In this document: piece by piece, positions 39,408-49,885 of the stretch
How the letters are laid out: each line of letters starts with the position of its first letter
Numbering within the stretch: the first letter of the stretch is position 1
From: Acidimicrobiia bacterium
GTDB taxonomy: Bacteria; Actinomycetota; Acidimicrobiia; Acidimicrobiales; Bin134
Length of the DNA: 64,000 nt
Assembly: GCA_022819825.1 (NCBI GenBank)
Contig: JAJEGM010000053.1
Coordinates: 67,722-131,721 of the forward strand
Direction of reading: 5' to 3'
The notes under the pieces: generated by a model
The model's input: only the letters and a program-made list of their open reading frames with translations
Told to the model about the DNA's origin: nothing
Databases searched by the model: none
Translations under genes and position numbers: made by a program

Positions 39408-40493
39408 TTAGTGGGAGTGCATGAGGAATTTGGTGAGCTTCGACTTCTGACGGATTTCCCGCTCGGTTGCAAACAGATGGTCGACGTGGTGGCTCTCCTG
39501 GTCGCAACCCTCCACCGAGTGCTCAAGCTGAATGGTGGTGTGCTGGATTCCGTAGCCCTTGACAATCTCGCGGATTTTACGGAGCTTGTCATCCGCTTCT
39601 TGGGCATCACTGCTCGGCTCGGCCAGCACATGAGCGGTCATAGACAGATAGCCCGATGAGATTGTCCGTACGTGCACATCGTGGACGATGGTGACGCCCT
39701 CCACCTCTTCGATGTCATGGCATAGCTTGTAGACGTCCACGTTCTCGGGTGTGCCGTCGATCAGCACATGGAATACCTCGGACACCAGGTTCCAAGAACT
39801 GAAGAGGATGAGCAGGCCGATGAACATGCTGAGGATCGGGTCGACGATGTCCCAGCCCACGCTGATGATGAAGATGCCCGAGATCACGACGGCTACCGAG
39901 CCCAACAAGTCGGCCAAGACATGCTGAAAGGCGCCCTCCACGTTCAGGCTGTGTCCGGATTGGCGATGGAGGACATAGGCCACCAACACGTTGATCAATA
40001 GACCAGCCGTGCCCACGCCGAGCATGAGACCGCCTTCAACATGGTGAGTATCCCCACCGAATCTCCGAATCGCCTCGAAGAAAATCCACCCCACGATCAC
40101 CCAGAGGGATAGGGCATTGAACATAGCGGCCAGGATCTCGGTTCGATAAAAGCCGAATGTCCGCTTGGCCGAAGCGGCTCGGTCGGCCGCCCACATGGCG
40201 AACAGCGCGAGGCCGATGGCCGCGCTGTCGGTGAGCATGTGGCCAGCGTCTGAGATCAGCGCCAGGCTGCCCGACGCGAAGCCGCCGATCACTTCGATCA
40301 CCATGAACGTGGTGGTCAGGGTGACCGCGGTGATCAGGCTCTTGCGGCTGGCCTCTCGTAGGTCATGGTGATGGTGGTCGTGGTCGTGCCCGTGATGGTC
40401 GTGCCCGTGGTGGTCGTGGTCGTGCCCGTGATGGTCGTCATGGGCATGGTCGTGCCCATGCCCATGCCCATGCCCATGACCAGTTTTATCCAC
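39408..40493 (-). CDS. CDF-family metal efflux protein with His-rich N-terminus
   Basis: About 361 residues. The first 45 are a His-rich repeat (HGHGHGHGHDHAHDDHHG and on). The CDF core follows with six membrane helices, including LISDAGHMLTDSAAIGLALFA and HVLADLLGSVAVVISG, each with the H/D-x-x-x-D zinc site pattern (DAGHMLTD, HVLAD). The C-terminal cytoplasmic domain (DVYKLCHDIEEVEGVTIVHDVHVRTIS) is typical. Likely exports Zn(II), by analogy to CzcD/ZitB. The start is GTG at 40493, overlapping the stop of the small His-rich gene by one base (TAGTG), so translation is coupled. It converges on znuB. Confidence 0.9.
   Translation of the reverse strand: MDKTGHGHGHGHGHDHAHDDHHGHDHDHHGHDHHGHDHDHHHHDLREASRKSLITAVTLTTTFMVIEVIGGFASGSLALISDAGHMLTDSAAIGLALFAMWAADRAASAKRTFGFYRTEILAAMFNALSLWVIVGWIFFEAIRRFGGDTHHVEGGLMLGVGTAGLLINVLVAYVLHRQSGHSLNVEGAFQHVLADLLGSVAVVISGIFIISVGWDIVDPILSMFIGLLILFSSWNLVSEVFHVLIDGTPENVDVYKLCHDIEEVEGVTIVHDVHVRTISSGYLSMTAHVLAEPSSDAQEADDKLRKIREIVKGYGIQHTTIQLEHSVEGCDQESHHVDHLFATEREIRQKSKLTKFLMHSH
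40374..40480 (-). repeat. Tandem repeats encoding the His-rich N-terminus of the CDF protein
   Basis: Two copies of a roughly 29-nt unit start at 40374 and 40410 (period 36), followed by several near-perfect 6-nt CATGCC repeats to about 40480. All lie in the N-terminal coding region of the CDF gene and translate as His/Asp/Gly repeats. Length variation by slippage is likely between strains. Confidence 0.7.
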
Positions 40494-40693
40494 TATGCCG
40501 CAGCGGTACAGCACTCTTCGGTGTGGACGTGTACCGGAATATCGCAGTGGTCTTCGTGGTCGGCGTGGGTGTGTTCAGGTGTGTCGCAGTGGTCTTCGTG
40601 GTTGTGCTCAGCCTGACCGCAGTGGTCGGCGTGGTCGGCGTGCGTGTGCTCCGGATGGTCGTAACACGCATCAGTGTGGACATGGTCTGCCAT
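40493..40693 (-). CDS. Small His/Cys-rich acidic metal-binding protein
   Basis: A 66-residue protein with 16 His, 6 Cys, 10 Asp and 7 Glu, and no Lys or Arg. It is built from about four repeats of a C-x-x-P/A-E-H-x-H-type unit, with C at 10, 25, 36, 50, 61 and 62. Examples are HPEHTHADHADHC and TPEHTHADHEDHC. No known family is apparent. It has a strong AAGGAG 6 nt before its ATG and is coupled by TAGTG to the CDF exporter. The composition and context point to soluble zinc binding, buffering or delivery to the exporter; this is inference. Confidence 0.8.
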   Translation of the reverse strand: MADHVHTDACYDHPEHTHADHADHCGQAEHNHEDHCDTPEHTHADHEDHCDIPVHVHTEECCTAAA

Positions 40694-45188: not shown

Positions 45189-46322
<1,134 letters not shown>

Positions 46323-46506
46323 CTCGTGCCTCCGCCGCAAACCGATCGCTATGTTGATATTTTATCCGCGATAGAGGTGAATAATTCTTGAAAAGATGCG
46401 GGATATGGGCCTATACGCGAATAATCTCTCCGCATAGATTCAATCTGTCGGTTATTTTATGTTCTACGAGGTTTGAGTGTTTATCTCGTCGCAAGGAGGC
46501 AGACCA
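46323..46506. promoter_or_regulatory. Divergent ald / Lrp intergenic region
   Basis: This 184-bp region is notably more AT-rich than its surroundings. An ATGCGG (46396-46401) ... CCGCAT (46430-46435) inverted repeat spans 40 bp. Lrp-family proteins bind such AT-rich, degenerate sites, so control of ald by the adjacent regulator is likely. No gene is seen. Confidence 0.45.
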
Positions 46507-46968
46507 GTGTCGGACTTGGACTCAATCGATCGATCAATCCTCAACGAACTCCAGAGCGATGCGCGGATGTCGAACGCGGAACTCGCCGACCGGGTGGGGC
46601 TGTCGCCGTCGGCTTGTTATCGGCGGGTCCGGCGCCTCGAAACCGACGGTGTAATCGCCGGGTACGTGATGATCCTCGATCCCGAAGCCATCAACCGCTC
46701 TCTCGATGTCTTCGTTGAAATCTCCTTGGTGAGCCAGAGCGAGGCGAATCTCCGCCAGTTTGAGAAGGAGGTGGTGGAGTGCCCCGAGGTCATGTCCTGC
46801 CACTTGATGGCCGGTGACGCCGACTACCTCCTCCACCTTGCAGTGGCCGACCAACGCGACTTCGAGCGGATCCACAATCAATATCTGTCCCGCTTCAGCG
46901 GTGTGGGCCGACTCCGATCCAGTTTTGCCATCCGTTCTGTATGGGAGACCACCCGCCACGAGCTTTAG
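46507..46968 (+). CDS. Lrp/AsnC-family transcriptional regulator
   Basis: A 153-residue Lrp/AsnC regulator. DLDSIDRSILNELQSDARMSNAELADRVGLSPSACYRRVRRLETDGVIAGY is the HTH, and the C-terminal RAM ligand domain (SLVSQSEANLRQFEKEVVECPEVMSCHLMAGDADYLLHLAVADQ) follows. The GTG at 46507 has AAGGAGG upstream. It diverges from ald, which it probably senses alanine or a similar amino acid to control. The next gene starts 10 nt downstream, so co-transcription with the UGSC pair is possible. Confidence 0.93.
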   Translation: MSDLDSIDRSILNELQSDARMSNAELADRVGLSPSACYRRVRRLETDGVIAGYVMILDPEAINRSLDVFVEISLVSQSEANLRQFEKEVVECPEVMSCHLMAGDADYLLHLAVADQRDFERIHNQYLSRFSGVGRLRSSFAIRSVWETTRHEL

Positions 46969-46977
46969 CATCAGAGC

Positions 46978-47961
46978 ATGACGACGGCCCCCCAGCACGC
47001 CTATGACTCCTATGAAGCTTTGGTGGAGGACTATTTCGAAAAGGGATGGACTGATGGGCTGCCCATCATGCCTCCGACGCCGGAAAAGGTGGCCGCCTTT
47101 CTGGAGCGCGCCGGCCTCTCTGGGGACGAGGTGCTTGGCACCGTGCCGACCAGAGAGGTGACATGCACCGCGCAACAAGCTGCGGCGAACGCGGTCATGG
47201 CCGGTTGCCTGCCCGAGTACTTCCCCACAGTGGTGGCCGCGGTTCGGGCCCATCTCCATCCCAAGGGCAACTGCCACTCGACCACCGGCACACTGTCGGG
47301 CGCAGCTCAGGCTGTCATCATCAACGGACCAATCCGCAATGAGCTGGGCGTGGCCTCGAGGGCAGGCTGCTTCGGACCTGGATTTCGGGCCAACGCCACC
47401 ATCGGCCGGGCCCTCCGCCTCGTGATCCGCAACGTGTGCCGTGGCATCCCCGGCTTTTTGGACCGGGCCAGCTACTCCACCCCAGCTCGCTACTCCTTCT
47501 GCTTCGGAGAGAATGAAGAGGCATCCGAATGGGAGCCGCTGCACGTCCAGCGGGGTCTAGCCCCTGAGCAGAGCGCGGTTACCGTCCACTCCCTGATGAA
47601 GATGGTCGAGGCCACCGATTTCACCAGTCGCAATGCCGAGGGGGTTTGCGACACGCTGGTCACCAATATCCGGGCCAATGGAATCGCTGGGGACTCTTGG
47701 CTGGGAGAAGACGGCAACGTCGTGATCGTGGTCGGCCACGAGCACCATCGGTTCTTCAATGAGGAAGGGTGGTCGAAAGCAGATATCCAGCAGTATCTGT
47801 GGCCCCGGCTCAACGCGCCGGCCACCAGCGCCACCGACCGGATGGCCCGCATCGGAAAGCCCGAGGGCATTTTGATCGTGGCCGCCGGGGGAGCGGGCAT
47901 GGGGGCCAGCTGGCTCCTGCTACCCCACCTCGCCCTCGCCATCACCGAGCCCATCTCCTAG
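46978..47961 (+). CDS. Conserved 327-residue protein adjacent to the UGSC selenoprotein
   Basis: I do not recognise a catalytic family. It starts with YDSYEALVEDYFEKGWTDGLPIMPPTPEKVAAFLE, and contains GCLPEYFPTVVAAVRAHL, NCHSTTGTLSGAAQAVIINGPIRNELGV, AGCFGPGFRANATIGRALRLVIRNV and a C-terminal ILIVAAGGAGMG. Its position 40 nt before the UGSC gene on the same strand suggests a joint function. Several Cys are spread through it. A TAGCAT box lies 6 nt before its ATG, so it may have its own leaderless promoter. Role unknown. Confidence 0.7.
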   Translation: MTTAPQHAYDSYEALVEDYFEKGWTDGLPIMPPTPEKVAAFLERAGLSGDEVLGTVPTREVTCTAQQAAANAVMAGCLPEYFPTVVAAVRAHLHPKGNCHSTTGTLSGAAQAVIINGPIRNELGVASRAGCFGPGFRANATIGRALRLVIRNVCRGIPGFLDRASYSTPARYSFCFGENEEASEWEPLHVQRGLAPEQSAVTVHSLMKMVEATDFTSRNAEGVCDTLVTNIRANGIAGDSWLGEDGNVVIVVGHEHHRFFNEEGWSKADIQQYLWPRLNAPATSATDRMARIGKPEGILIVAAGGAGMGASWLLLPHLALAITEPIS

Positions 47962-47988
47962 CCGCTGCCCGGACGCGCGCTTGTCGGC

Positions 47989-48000
47989 TAGTCTGAAGCC
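47989..48000 (+). promoter_or_regulatory. Putative leaderless promoter -10 box of the selenoprotein gene
   Basis: TAGTCT (47989-47994) lies 6 nt before the ATG at 48001 and fits TANNNT. No Shine-Dalgarno sequence is present. A matching -35 is not obvious. Confidence 0.4.
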
Positions 48001-48549
48001 ATGGCGACCCTCATCGGCCTCGATCCCACCTCGGGCCCGTTCGACCGCACCGACGACCATGATTTTTCTCCCCGGCCGGCCAGCTTGGACGGGGCGGTCG
48101 TCGCTTTGGTGGCCAACGGCCTCGGAGAGGGGGAGATCTTCCTGGATGCGCTCTATGACGAGCTGAACAAGTTGAGCGATCTGCAAGCCCCGCTCAAGGT
48201 GGTCAAGAGCTCGGTGTCCATTCCCCCTGATCCGGGAGACTGGAGTCGGTTGACCGAGGAGGCAACCGTCGCCATCACCGGCTTCGGCGGTTGAGGCAGC
48301 TGTAGCGCCCGCAGTTTGCGGGACGCAGTGGAGTTGGAGTGGGCCGGTGTTCCCAGCATCGCCATCGTCCACGAGGAGATGAGGGGATCGGCCCAGGCCA
48401 TCGCCCGAGTCAGCGGATGCCCCGACTACGAGTTCCTAACCGTCGACTATCCGTGGGTTCCCATCGCCATCTGGTCTAAAGAGGAGTGCTTGGATCTCGC
48501 CGAGATCATGGCGCCTAAGGTTCTGGCCGCGTTGACCGGCCAGAGCTGA
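48001..48549 (+). CDS. UGSC-family selenoprotein with in-frame UGA (Sec98)
   Basis: The frame is open from 48001 to 48549 except for TGA at 48292-48294. Before it the protein reads LDGAVVALVANGLGEGEIFLDALYDEL ... EEATVAITGFGG; after it GSCSARSLRDAVELEWAGVPSIAIVHEEM. Reading the TGA as selenocysteine gives 182 residues with U98-G-S-C101, the defining motif of the UGSC family, whose members carry Sec or Cys there. A hairpin of SECIS type starts 10 nt after the TGA. The UGSC pair would be a redox active site. The 3' end overlaps the converging MFS gene by 35 nt. Requires selenocysteine machinery elsewhere in the genome. Confidence 0.88.
48305..48326 (+). promoter_or_regulatory. Bacterial SECIS-like hairpin for Sec98
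   Basis: CCCGCA (48308-48313), a GTT loop and TGCGGG (48317-48322) form a perfect 6-bp stem. An outer GCG/CGC stem (48305-48307 with 48324-48326) is separated by a one-base bulge. The loop begins with G, 19 nt after the UGA, within the spacing known for bacterial SECIS elements. It lies inside the coding sequence, as expected in bacteria. Confidence 0.8.
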
Positions 48550-49885
48550 TCGTTCGTTCCGCCACCGCGGAGTTTGATGAAGAAATAGCGGCAGCGCCGA
48601 AGACCCCGACCGCGGCCACCGCCGCGCCCAGCCAAAAGGCGTTGGCAAAAGCCGCACCAGTGCCACTCTCTCCCACGGCCAGCACCAGAACCTGGACCCC
48701 CGCGGCTGTACCCAGGCTGGTGAGCGTCTGGAACATCCCGGTTGCTGCTCCCAGACGATCCATCGGGACCGACCCCACTACCGACACCTGGTACGCCGGT
48801 CCGGCTACTCCTAACCCCGCGCCGGCCAGGGCAAGGCCCAGCACGACCAGAACCACGGCATCGACCAGGGATCCCGCGGCAAAAGACACCATGGCCGACA
48901 CCACTAGGACGCTGCCCAGACAAGACGTCCACCGTTCACCCTTGGTAGCGGTCAGCCGACCGCCCACCGGCGAGCTGAGGCTGAAGCAGATCAGTCGTAC
49001 TACCAGAAAGACAGTTGCTGCTGTCAGTGTGTACCCGTACCGCTGCTGCAGGATCTGGGGCGCGAGGATGAAGCCGCCCATATAGGCCGCGTTGGCCGTG
49101 GCTGAGGCCACCACCGGACCGGCATAGTTCCGGCGGCGAAACCACTCGAGCGGGACCATCGGATGCGCCGAGTGCCGCTCGATGGCCACGAACGACCAGA
49201 TGGTTGGCGGCACGAGGGCAAGGAGCGCAATTGCCGCTGGGTGGCCGAAGCCCAGGGTGGCGCCCCTATCCAGAGCCACCATCAAGACGACTACCGCGGC
49301 GACCAGGCTGAGCGCGCCCGTGACGTCAATCGGCTTGGCCTCGCCAGCACGGGTAGGACGCACCACGATCACGGCGGCGATCAAACCGAGCGCGGCGATT
49401 GGGGTATAGACCGCGAAGATCGCCCGCCAGCCCAGCGCATCCACCAAAGCGCCCCCGGTGACCAAACCGATGGCTGGTCCTCCCACGGCCGCGAATTGGA
49501 ACCATCCCATAGCCCGAGCCCGTTGATTGACCGGGAACGCAGCCATCATGATGGCCATCCCGTTGGGGATCATCATGGCTCCACCCAGCCCGAACAATGC
49601 CCGAAACGCAATGAAACTCAAGGCATCCCAGGCCAACCCGCACACTCCCGTAGCTGCGGTGAACACGGTCAAGCCAAGGATCAGCATCCGACGGTGGCCC
49701 CACGAGTCGCCCAGGGTCCCGAATACCGTGGTCCCCGCAGCCAACCCGAGAAACGGTGCGGAGACCGCCCACGACAAGGTGGTGTTGGTGGTGCCCAGAC
49801 TCTCCGAGATGTCCGTTAGCGAGGCTCCAATGATGGTCATGGTGGAGCCAAACACCACCTGACCAGCGAGCAGGGTTACGAGCAA
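48515..49885 (-). CDS. MFS transporter, DHA2-like drug/solute efflux type
   Basis: A membrane protein of about 456 residues. GTLGDSWGHRRMLILGL is the MFS motif A, FRALFGLGGAMMIPNGMAIM the early helix motif, and PAIGLVTGGALVDALGWRAIFAVYTPIAALGL motif C. 12-14 helices are expected, of the EmrB/QacA-like type. The start is uncertain: TTG at 49885 is used, but the in-frame extension (AYAWRLL) also looks like membrane-protein sequence. Its 3' end overlaps the selenoprotein gene on the other strand. Substrate unknown. Confidence 0.88.
   Translation of the reverse strand: MLVTLLAGQVVFGSTMTIIGASLTDISESLGTTNTTLSWAVSAPFLGLAAGTTVFGTLGDSWGHRRMLILGLTVFTAATGVCGLAWDALSFIAFRALFGLGGAMMIPNGMAIMMAAFPVNQRARAMGWFQFAAVGGPAIGLVTGGALVDALGWRAIFAVYTPIAALGLIAAVIVVRPTRAGEAKPIDVTGALSLVAAVVVLMVALDRGATLGFGHPAAIALLALVPPTIWSFVAIERHSAHPMVPLEWFRRRNYAGPVVASATANAAYMGGFILAPQILQQRYGYTLTAATVFLVVRLICFSLSSPVGGRLTATKGERWTSCLGSVLVVSAMVSFAAGSLVDAVVLVVLGLALAGAGLGVAGPAYQVSVVGSVPMDRLGAATGMFQTLTSLGTAAGVQVLVLAVGESGTGAAFANAFWLGAAVAAVGVFGAAAISSSNSAVAERTISSGRSTRPEP

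Follow-up and report, generated by a model that had tools for sequence, protein, structure and literature searches.

The locus considered here lies in a 64,000-nucleotide stretch of DNA from an Acidimicrobiia bacterium (hereafter the window, meaning the whole stretch analysed), and comprises a regulator gene, a gene of no named family that we call the partner, and a UGSC-family gene interrupted by an in-frame TGA. Its features, with the evidence for each, are:

46477..46968, + strand: AsnC/Lrp-type regulator, 9 nt upstream of the partner gene (Pfam)
46978..47961, + strand: near-obligate partner gene, 327 aa, without a named family (adjacency counts)
48001..48549, + strand: predicted UGSC-family selenoprotein gene, 182 aa via TGA readthrough (PF24696; dN/dS)
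48292..48303, + strand: predicted Sec98-Gly-Ser-Cys101 motif, TGA GGC AGC TGT
48308..48322, + strand: SECIS-like hairpin core, +14 to +28 after the TGA (covariation, loop conservation, MFE)

The UGSC frame opens with the ATG at 48001 and closes with a true stop that is itself a TGA (48547-48549), and the TGA at 48292-48294 sits in frame between the two, at the U-G-S-C motif, as the initial annotation had claimed. Read as U, this codon yields a protein of 182 aa that includes ...ITGFGGUGSCSARSLRDAV..., while the mechanical ORFs flanking it are 97 aa (48001-48294) and 77 aa plus a stop (48316-48549), the fragments that ordinary gene callers had been expected to leave. The whole protein matches the UGSC family model PF24696 with 134.9 bits (gathering cut-off 25), and its two halves, searched separately, still exceed that cut-off with 39.4 and 75.9 bits; the equivalog model NF041046 gives 88.2 bits against a cut-off of 125 (Sec given as Cys), so that the family name rests on Pfam.

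The TGA is flanked by strongly constrained sequence on either side, dN/dS being 0.055 upstream and 0.068 downstream among same-genus copies (168 of 171 pairs from 19 sequences, skipping pairs that were identical or had dS ≤0.02; L163 was dropped as short, L042 was left out, and three contigs are present twice). Beyond the window, the same-genus sample consists of 19 loci on 16 distinct contigs (L039, L040 and L041 being the same contigs as L153, L148 and L154), plus the more distant relative L042. Although the 16 genus orthologues were chosen from matches already listing a TGA, L039-L042 came from a partner-based scan and were not so chosen, and the TGA is carried by the copies of the window orthologue in the genus, these included; in one same-genus copy, that of genome G008, the motif is unreadable. 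Among the best 80 of 451 relatives, the nearest loci in named records belong to metagenome-assembled genomes (MAGs) labelled Acidimicrobiia (L039, L041) or simply bacterium (L040). Because selection is maintained 3' of the TGA, the gene is neither a pseudogene nor truly terminated at this codon, and the conservation of sense on both sides that had been proposed for it is borne out.

Decoding of the in-frame TGA

Eighty loci, the best 80 of 451 confirmed relatives of the partner, were scanned for the residue at the Sec position. Within these, 76 of the 78 UGSC domains have TGA in a U-x-x-C motif and 75 fit U-[GASC]-x-C, the others being L099 (Cys), the first copy at L053 (neither Sec nor Cys) and the second UGSC domain of L043 (L043:6010-6537), in which U-V-G-C replaces U-G-S-C. 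With U written as C, positions 98, 99 and 101 read C, G and C in every row of an alignment that keeps 79 of 81 non-redundant rows and leaves out these two divergent copies of L053 and L043. A broader count comes from 60 genomes (that of the window and 59 relatives, with 139 UGSC and 139 partner matches), where 134 of the 139 UGSC matches list one in-frame TGA, its placement at the motif having been read for the fetched ones only; the other five comprise two Cys forms (L185, L186), the unreadable L184 and two short partial matches.

Cys stands at the UGA position in L099, L146 (= L186), L185, L187-L190 and the plasmid-borne L197-L201, and "CGSC" forms recur, one of them, TGFGGCGSCSTRS (L190), being close to the window gene. 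The Cys forms of L187-L189 are accompanied by a partner, and that of L190 sits where its contig ends and has no partner within reach; on plasmids, Cys-type pairs occur in Arthrobacter, two Variovorax and two haloarchaea. Rarer motifs are U-D-G-C (L191) and U-P-G-C (L192), and at L193:2412-4058 the UGSC domain reads DMGTSS, lacking both Sec and Cys, beside a partner that keeps Cys77 and Cys175. The expectation that homologues carry Sec or Cys at this position thus holds for most of them and fails in two divergent exceptions, the first copy of L053 and L193.

The initial annotation had placed a SECIS-like hairpin with a G-led loop 10 nt downstream of the TGA, and minimum free energy folding agrees, giving a stem from 48305 (+11) with a GUU triloop (48314-48316); in the window gene the stem extends to 48305 and 48326. 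The z score of this single sequence against shuffles, -1.30, is unremarkable, and it is the comparison with homologues, rather than single-sequence folding, that settles the reality of the hairpin. In an alignment gapless from the TGA (104 distinct of 125 Sec rows, all picked for having a TGA, one row being shorter than 45 nt), the core stem 48308-48313/48317-48322 (+14 to +19 with +23 to +28) pairs in 96.6% of cells, compared with 83.9% in shuffled and 11-65% in slid controls. Both sides change in five of the six stem pairs across the 104 distinct Sec sequences, and a covariation score of 0.338 compares with 0.110 in the shuffled and no more than 0.060 in the slid controls, bearing in mind that kinship alone can push related sequences above shuffles, a caveat that the slid controls answer in part. 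Loop residues G20 and U21 are kept in 102 of 104 sequences, the exceptions being the own-genome paralogues L027 and L030. Measured against its homologues, the predicted hairpin 3' of the TGA is far from chance. A search with Rfam returned no SECIS match in 46400-48700 up to E 5.

The genome is equipped to insert selenocysteine: it holds a tRNA-Sec (67.5 bits, cut-off 47; ARAGORN anticodon TCA) together with selA, selB and selD, all above cut-off, with selA adjoining selB, which contradicts the absence of all sel genes raised as a potential objection by the initial annotation. The selD gene (L018, C29:50708-51652, minus strand) has an in-frame TGA of its own, in GAGUAGK, and the selenophosphate synthetase of this genome is thus probably itself a selenoprotein. 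There are six UGSC genes in the genome, the window gene and five paralogues, each with one in-frame TGA in U-G-[SA]-C, and several of the paralogues, like the window gene, terminate at TGA. More widely, SelA is present in 34 of 36 genomes with the pair and in 10 of 24 without it.

That 48292 holds an ordinary stop, a sequencing error or the lesion of a pseudogene would be in keeping with the modest single-sequence z score, yet the TGA recurs in independent genomes, purifying selection continues beyond it, and the covarying hairpin, the six TGA-bearing paralogues and the selenium machinery all argue against such an explanation, to which we attach hardly any probability. Genome-wide reassignment of TGA, for example to Trp, is more improbable still: the window gene's own stop is a TGA, as are those of several paralogues, so that the genetic code is not altered throughout the genome, and among the relatives Cys occurs at the site and no Trp was seen. 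Judging from these sequence comparisons, TGA 48292-48294 is almost certainly decoded as Sec, and the reading of this gene as a UGSC-family selenoprotein, which the initial annotation had proposed, is supported. The same annotation missed the five paralogues, the near-obligate upstream partner gene and the link to GrdB and PrdB, to which we now turn.

The partner gene

The partner gene ends 39 nt upstream of the UGSC gene, and the genome contains six partner copies (that of the window included), one adjoining each of the six UGSC genes, with the partner first in three pairs and UGSC first in three. Across the 60 genomes, 135 of 139 UGSC matches have a partner within 2 kb on the same strand, and vice versa, with a median gap of 62 nt and in either order (76 partner-first, 59 UGSC-first); the coordinates of the eight matches left unpaired show each to be either incomplete or to begin no more than about 320 nt from the start of its contig. 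Approached from the other side, among the best 80 of 451 confirmed relatives, a UGSC gene was found in 72 of 80 partner loci, and 78 of 88 partner genes have a same-strand UGSC gene in the locus, 69 of them within 300 nt. The eight loci of these 80 in which no UGSC gene was found include three near contig ends and five that are not. At L096:3840-6008, from a Bacillota MAG, two partner genes stand in tandem with no UGSC gene found in the 11-kb locus, and L044, L055, L065 and L077 likewise lack one. Within the same best 80, partner relatives come from records labelled Chloroflexi, Dehalococcoidia, several proteobacterial groups, Rokubacteria, Acidimicrobiia and others.

Gene order within the pair switched at least five times on the partner tree, or at least six times on the UGSC tree (quick trees of 82 pairs after near-duplicates were left out). 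Distances within the two families correlate with r of 0.82, the highest of 500 permutations reaching 0.094, as co-inheritance predicts. Fusions also occur: both domains lie in one frame whose sole stop is the Sec TGA in L052, L062, L073 and Acidovorax sp. T1, and in a single frame without any stop in the Sec-less L053 and in Variovorax boronicumulans (WP_319362312.1, a Cys form on a plasmid, annotated as one protein). On these grounds, UGSC and partner very probably form a two-subunit unit.

Several of these genes travel on plasmids. The conjugative IncP plasmid p2-T1 of Acidovorax sp. T1 bears the fused UGSC(Sec)-partner frame at L196:6416-7975; in the plasmid table its sole entry is a hypothetical protein of 96 aa that stops exactly at the TGA, and no gene is listed for the partner half, the table being incomplete by its own description. 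Plasmids of Halorientalis litorea (L199) and Natrinema zhouii (L200) carry Cys-type pairs, the UGSC gene of L199 being flanked by partners on both sides.

The partner itself resists family assignment, with no Pfam family at E 0.01 in 88 members and an NCBIfam match, a weak one, in one member of 88. Its AF2 model has a pLDDT of 93.9, and a fold search returned two matches at E <0.001, both class I fumarate hydratase (TM 0.24-0.28); Toblerone cyclic-amide hydrolases also came up, none better than E 0.003. Given the low TM scores, we treat these only as leads. Cys77 is present in 85 of 88 and Cys175 in 81 of 88 homologues (88 of 90 sequences being aligned, without L054 and L091, whose segments end in a TGA). 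Cys175 is replaced in many pairs, making a fixed two-Cys relay in the partner unlikely. In the partner-Cys table of L184-L201, U is written as C, so that its "Cys" class includes the true Sec forms L194-L196, and its "other" class includes the Sec forms L191 and L192.

Three further ideas about the partner were rejected. A Sec of its own is not indicated, as the TGA in 3 of 136 partner segments stands at their end; its Cys residues are not lost together with Sec, as L193 retains both; and it is not a homologue of GrdE/PrdA, to which it is unrelated by profile comparison (hhalign 0.1%), the genome itself containing no match to PF09338, the model of the pyruvoyl partner GrdE/PrdA. Consequently, no counterpart was found for the pyruvoyl substrate anchor of the GrdB and PrdB systems.

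Relation to selenoprotein B and possible chemistry

Among 79 UGSC proteins, 27 match TIGR01917 at E ≤0.01 (best 1.1e-6), and other models matched are GrdF (13), TIGR01918 (8), GrdH (5) and PrdB (1). The window protein itself matches none of the GrdB/PrdB models (PF07355, TIGR01917, TIGR01918, TIGR04483) at E 0.001 or 0.01, and PF07355 has no match at E 0.01 among the 79; in its matches to GrdB-like genes, this model ends where the Sec codon stands. Comparison of the UGSC profile with gathered GrdB-like proteins gives 82-93% probability with Sec on Sec, in the same register. This register is kept with Sec masked (65%, P 6.1e-5), and is kept again with both Sec and the +3 Cys masked, at a probability reduced to 31-36% (P about 5e-4); in controls, P was no lower than 0.33 for eight column shuffles and was 0.038 for the reversed profile. 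On profile evidence, then, the predicted Sec module is distantly related to selenoprotein B of the glycine and D-proline reductases.

In the AF2 model of the UGSC protein (pLDDT 92.1), strands and helices alternate in Rossmann/flavodoxin-like fashion, and Sec98 immediately precedes a helix. The PDB matches of this model are weak, none being better than E 1.5e-3, and many are flavodoxin-like; a thioredoxin fold was not found with the model and Foldseek, no such title occurring in the 50 matches listed (of 1264 at E ≤10). Sequence searches of the PDB with the UGSC and partner profiles gave nothing useful, and a PDB search for GrdB gave nothing either. The model therefore does not support the thioredoxin-like fold that the authors of the Global Ocean Sampling (GOS) study suggested for the UGSC protein, in the passage concerned (PMC2398784).

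The neighbourhood of the pair is varied. In the window's genus, the order regulator-partner-UGSC recurs in 19 of 19 loci examined (three of them repeats), where the AsnC/Lrp regulator is likely in the same operon as the pair; upstream of the partner in the more distant L042 it was not found. An alanine dehydrogenase gene (minus strand) diverges from the regulator (plus strand) within 45189-46968 of the window, and together they give a faint hint of an amino-acid-like effector. Thioredoxin genes adjoin a few pairs: Arthrobacter sp. ERGS1:01, with a Cys-type pair, has the order trxB-trxA-partner-UGSC, and Variovorax sp. SRS16 has trxB near the pair, while of 77 scanned loci only two (L064, L067) have TrxA/TrxB homologues nearby. 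No substrate emerged from flanking genes, the top Pfam family being found in 5 of 80 and 4 of 79 flanking proteins (159 longer ORFs chosen from 412 listed, at loci up to L097), and there was no match to anti-phage defence.

Transporter genes do lie near the pair in several loci. Elsewhere in the window, 39408-40514 encodes a His-rich N-terminus followed by what looks like a cation-diffusion (zinc) transporter. Phosphosulfolactate synthase-like genes occur near the pair at L198:4716-5504, L200:4464-4931 and L062 (near 6062), and could hint at C-S chemistry; DUF6282 and CoA-transferase genes lie near the pairs of L199 and L200.

In D-proline reductase, the PrdB selenolate is proposed to attack a substrate carbon held by PrdA, and the donors of glycine reductase are NADPH, thioredoxin reductase and thioredoxin, according to the pertinent passages of PMC3091704. 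Taking this chemistry together with the relation to GrdB and the thioredoxin neighbours, we infer that the pair is a two-subunit, Sec-dependent, thioredoxin-regenerated reductase in the style of GrdB/PrdB, with an unrelated partner, a reading that we consider rather probable as a whole. Under this scheme, the UGA at 48292-48294 would be decoded by SelB and tRNA-Sec, aided by the hairpin starting 13 nt downstream, to give the Sec-containing catalytic subunit with Sec98 and a resolving Cys101, and the upstream gene would supply a dedicated second subunit. The Sec98 selenolate, at the start of its helix, would attack a substrate held with the partner, and a bond in that substrate would be cut reductively, as in the selenoprotein-B part of glycine and D-proline reductase; Cys101 would then free the product, leaving a selenenyl-sulfide, and a thioredoxin-type donor would regenerate the pair. 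The several paralogous pairs in one genome may serve different small, probably carboxylate, substrates. We put the reductive chemistry of GrdB/PrdB type at roughly even odds, and the assignment of a small, probably carboxylate, substrate class is weaker, amounting to a suggestion.

UxxC is a classical redox motif, and a less likely alternative, to which we give perhaps a minor share of the probability, is that the pair handles thiol-disulfides or peroxides as a general redox unit, a role the GOS authors suggested for a Trx-like UGSC protein, and that the partner is the client of this unit instead of belonging to a substrate-converting enzyme. The trxA/trxB genes beside a few pairs and the common Cys77 of the partner would suit such a role, whereas the Rossmann/flavodoxin-like model, with no thioredoxin title among the PDB matches listed, does not, and neither do the matches of the 79 members at E 0.01, which are to selenoprotein B of the glycine-reductase type and to a handful of isolated, unrelated families, with no thioredoxin among them. 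The inconstancy of Cys175 also tells against this alternative, and the six paralogous pairs in one genome would better suit substrate specialisation. A binding or transport-helper module, in which the Sec/Cys site binds or senses a metal or soft ligand, appears improbable. Sec has been proposed as a metal ligand in other bacterial selenoproteins (in passages of PMC13188914), L193 retains the pair without Sec or Cys, and the nearby transporters would fit; however, the near-exclusive use of Sec (TGA being listed in 134 of 139 matches) and the GrdB-like register of the motif both point to catalysis, and the Pfam scan of 79 members found no metallochaperone family.

A wider and more tentative proposal, which we hold at somewhat less than an even chance, is that UGSC and its partner represent a sizeable class of selenoenzymes with two subunits that has been overlooked although it extends across many bacterial phyla, with Cys versions on haloarchaeal plasmids. 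In it, a GrdB-type Sec module rebuilt on an unrelated substrate-binding subunit would carry out thioredoxin-driven, reductive cleavage of bonds in diverse small acids, outside amino-acid fermentation, the setting from which such chemistry is known. Such a class, if real, would have escaped notice through the habit of gene callers of splitting the catalytic gene at the UGA and labelling the partner hypothetical. The fused Sec frame of Acidovorax sp. T1 illustrates mis-annotation of this kind, although the original record may hold more. The near-fixed partner, the relation to GrdB/PrdB and the Cys-type pairs together turn an orphan selenoprotein into a testable two-subunit enzyme, and the Cys-type pairs of cultured organisms (Arthrobacter, Variovorax, haloarchaea) should be expressible without selenium machinery.

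Comparison with known systems

Listings of the UGSC-containing protein among selenoproteins go back to 2008 or earlier (PMC2398784, PMC5029168, PMC9402790, PMC9312934, PMC13188914, in the passages concerned). In its passages on UGSC, the 2008 GOS paper counts 255 Sec and 21 Cys forms and reports a fusion to an "Unknown_1" domain, which may be the partner described here (PMC2398784), and UGSC is placed among the most abundant selenoproteins of aquatic metagenomes, at 8.2% of selenoprotein genes in one survey, by a passage of PMC9402790. The literature passages on UGSC give no function, and in those we found no description of a separate partner gene or of a link to GrdB, a point on which Haft and Tolstoy 2025 (selenoprotein neighbourhoods) may bear. 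A UGSC selenoprotein as such is therefore already known, while the paired system looks new.

Oxidoreductases of the thioredoxin fold with a UxxC motif resemble UGSC in placing that motif at the start of a helix, yet they differ in predicted fold, and UGSC has no match to their families. The short GrdB-like selenoproteins of Acidimicrobiia occur in the same class of organism and share an in-frame TGA and a GrdB-type C-terminal part, but match PF07355 directly and have U-P-[LMIV]-C where UGSC has U-G-S-C. The genome of the window contains a short GrdB-like gene (L168, PF07355; C36:242466-242885, minus strand) whose TGA reads on as U-P-L-C and which probably encodes another selenoprotein, and the U-P-x-C pattern is found in other Acidimicrobiia (L166, L167, L169-L174).

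GrdB (PF07355, TIGR01917, TIGR01918) and PrdB (TIGR04483) share with UGSC a Sec in a U-G-x-C-type motif, in the same register, and the presence of a partner that is a protein of its own; downstream of the Sec come 84 to 90 residues in each, on the figures in the relevant part of PMC3091704. UGSC differs in being shorter (182 aa) and in a partner without a recognised pyruvoyl site. With the UGSC family itself (PF24696; NF041046), the window protein shares its sequence family, the U-G-S-C motif and the predominance of Sec. Whereas that family is described, in the literature passages on it, as a protein alone or as the "Unknown_1" fusion, the system reported here extends it with a separate partner gene, six paralogous pairs, switches of gene order, a model that is not thioredoxin-like and a link to GrdB.
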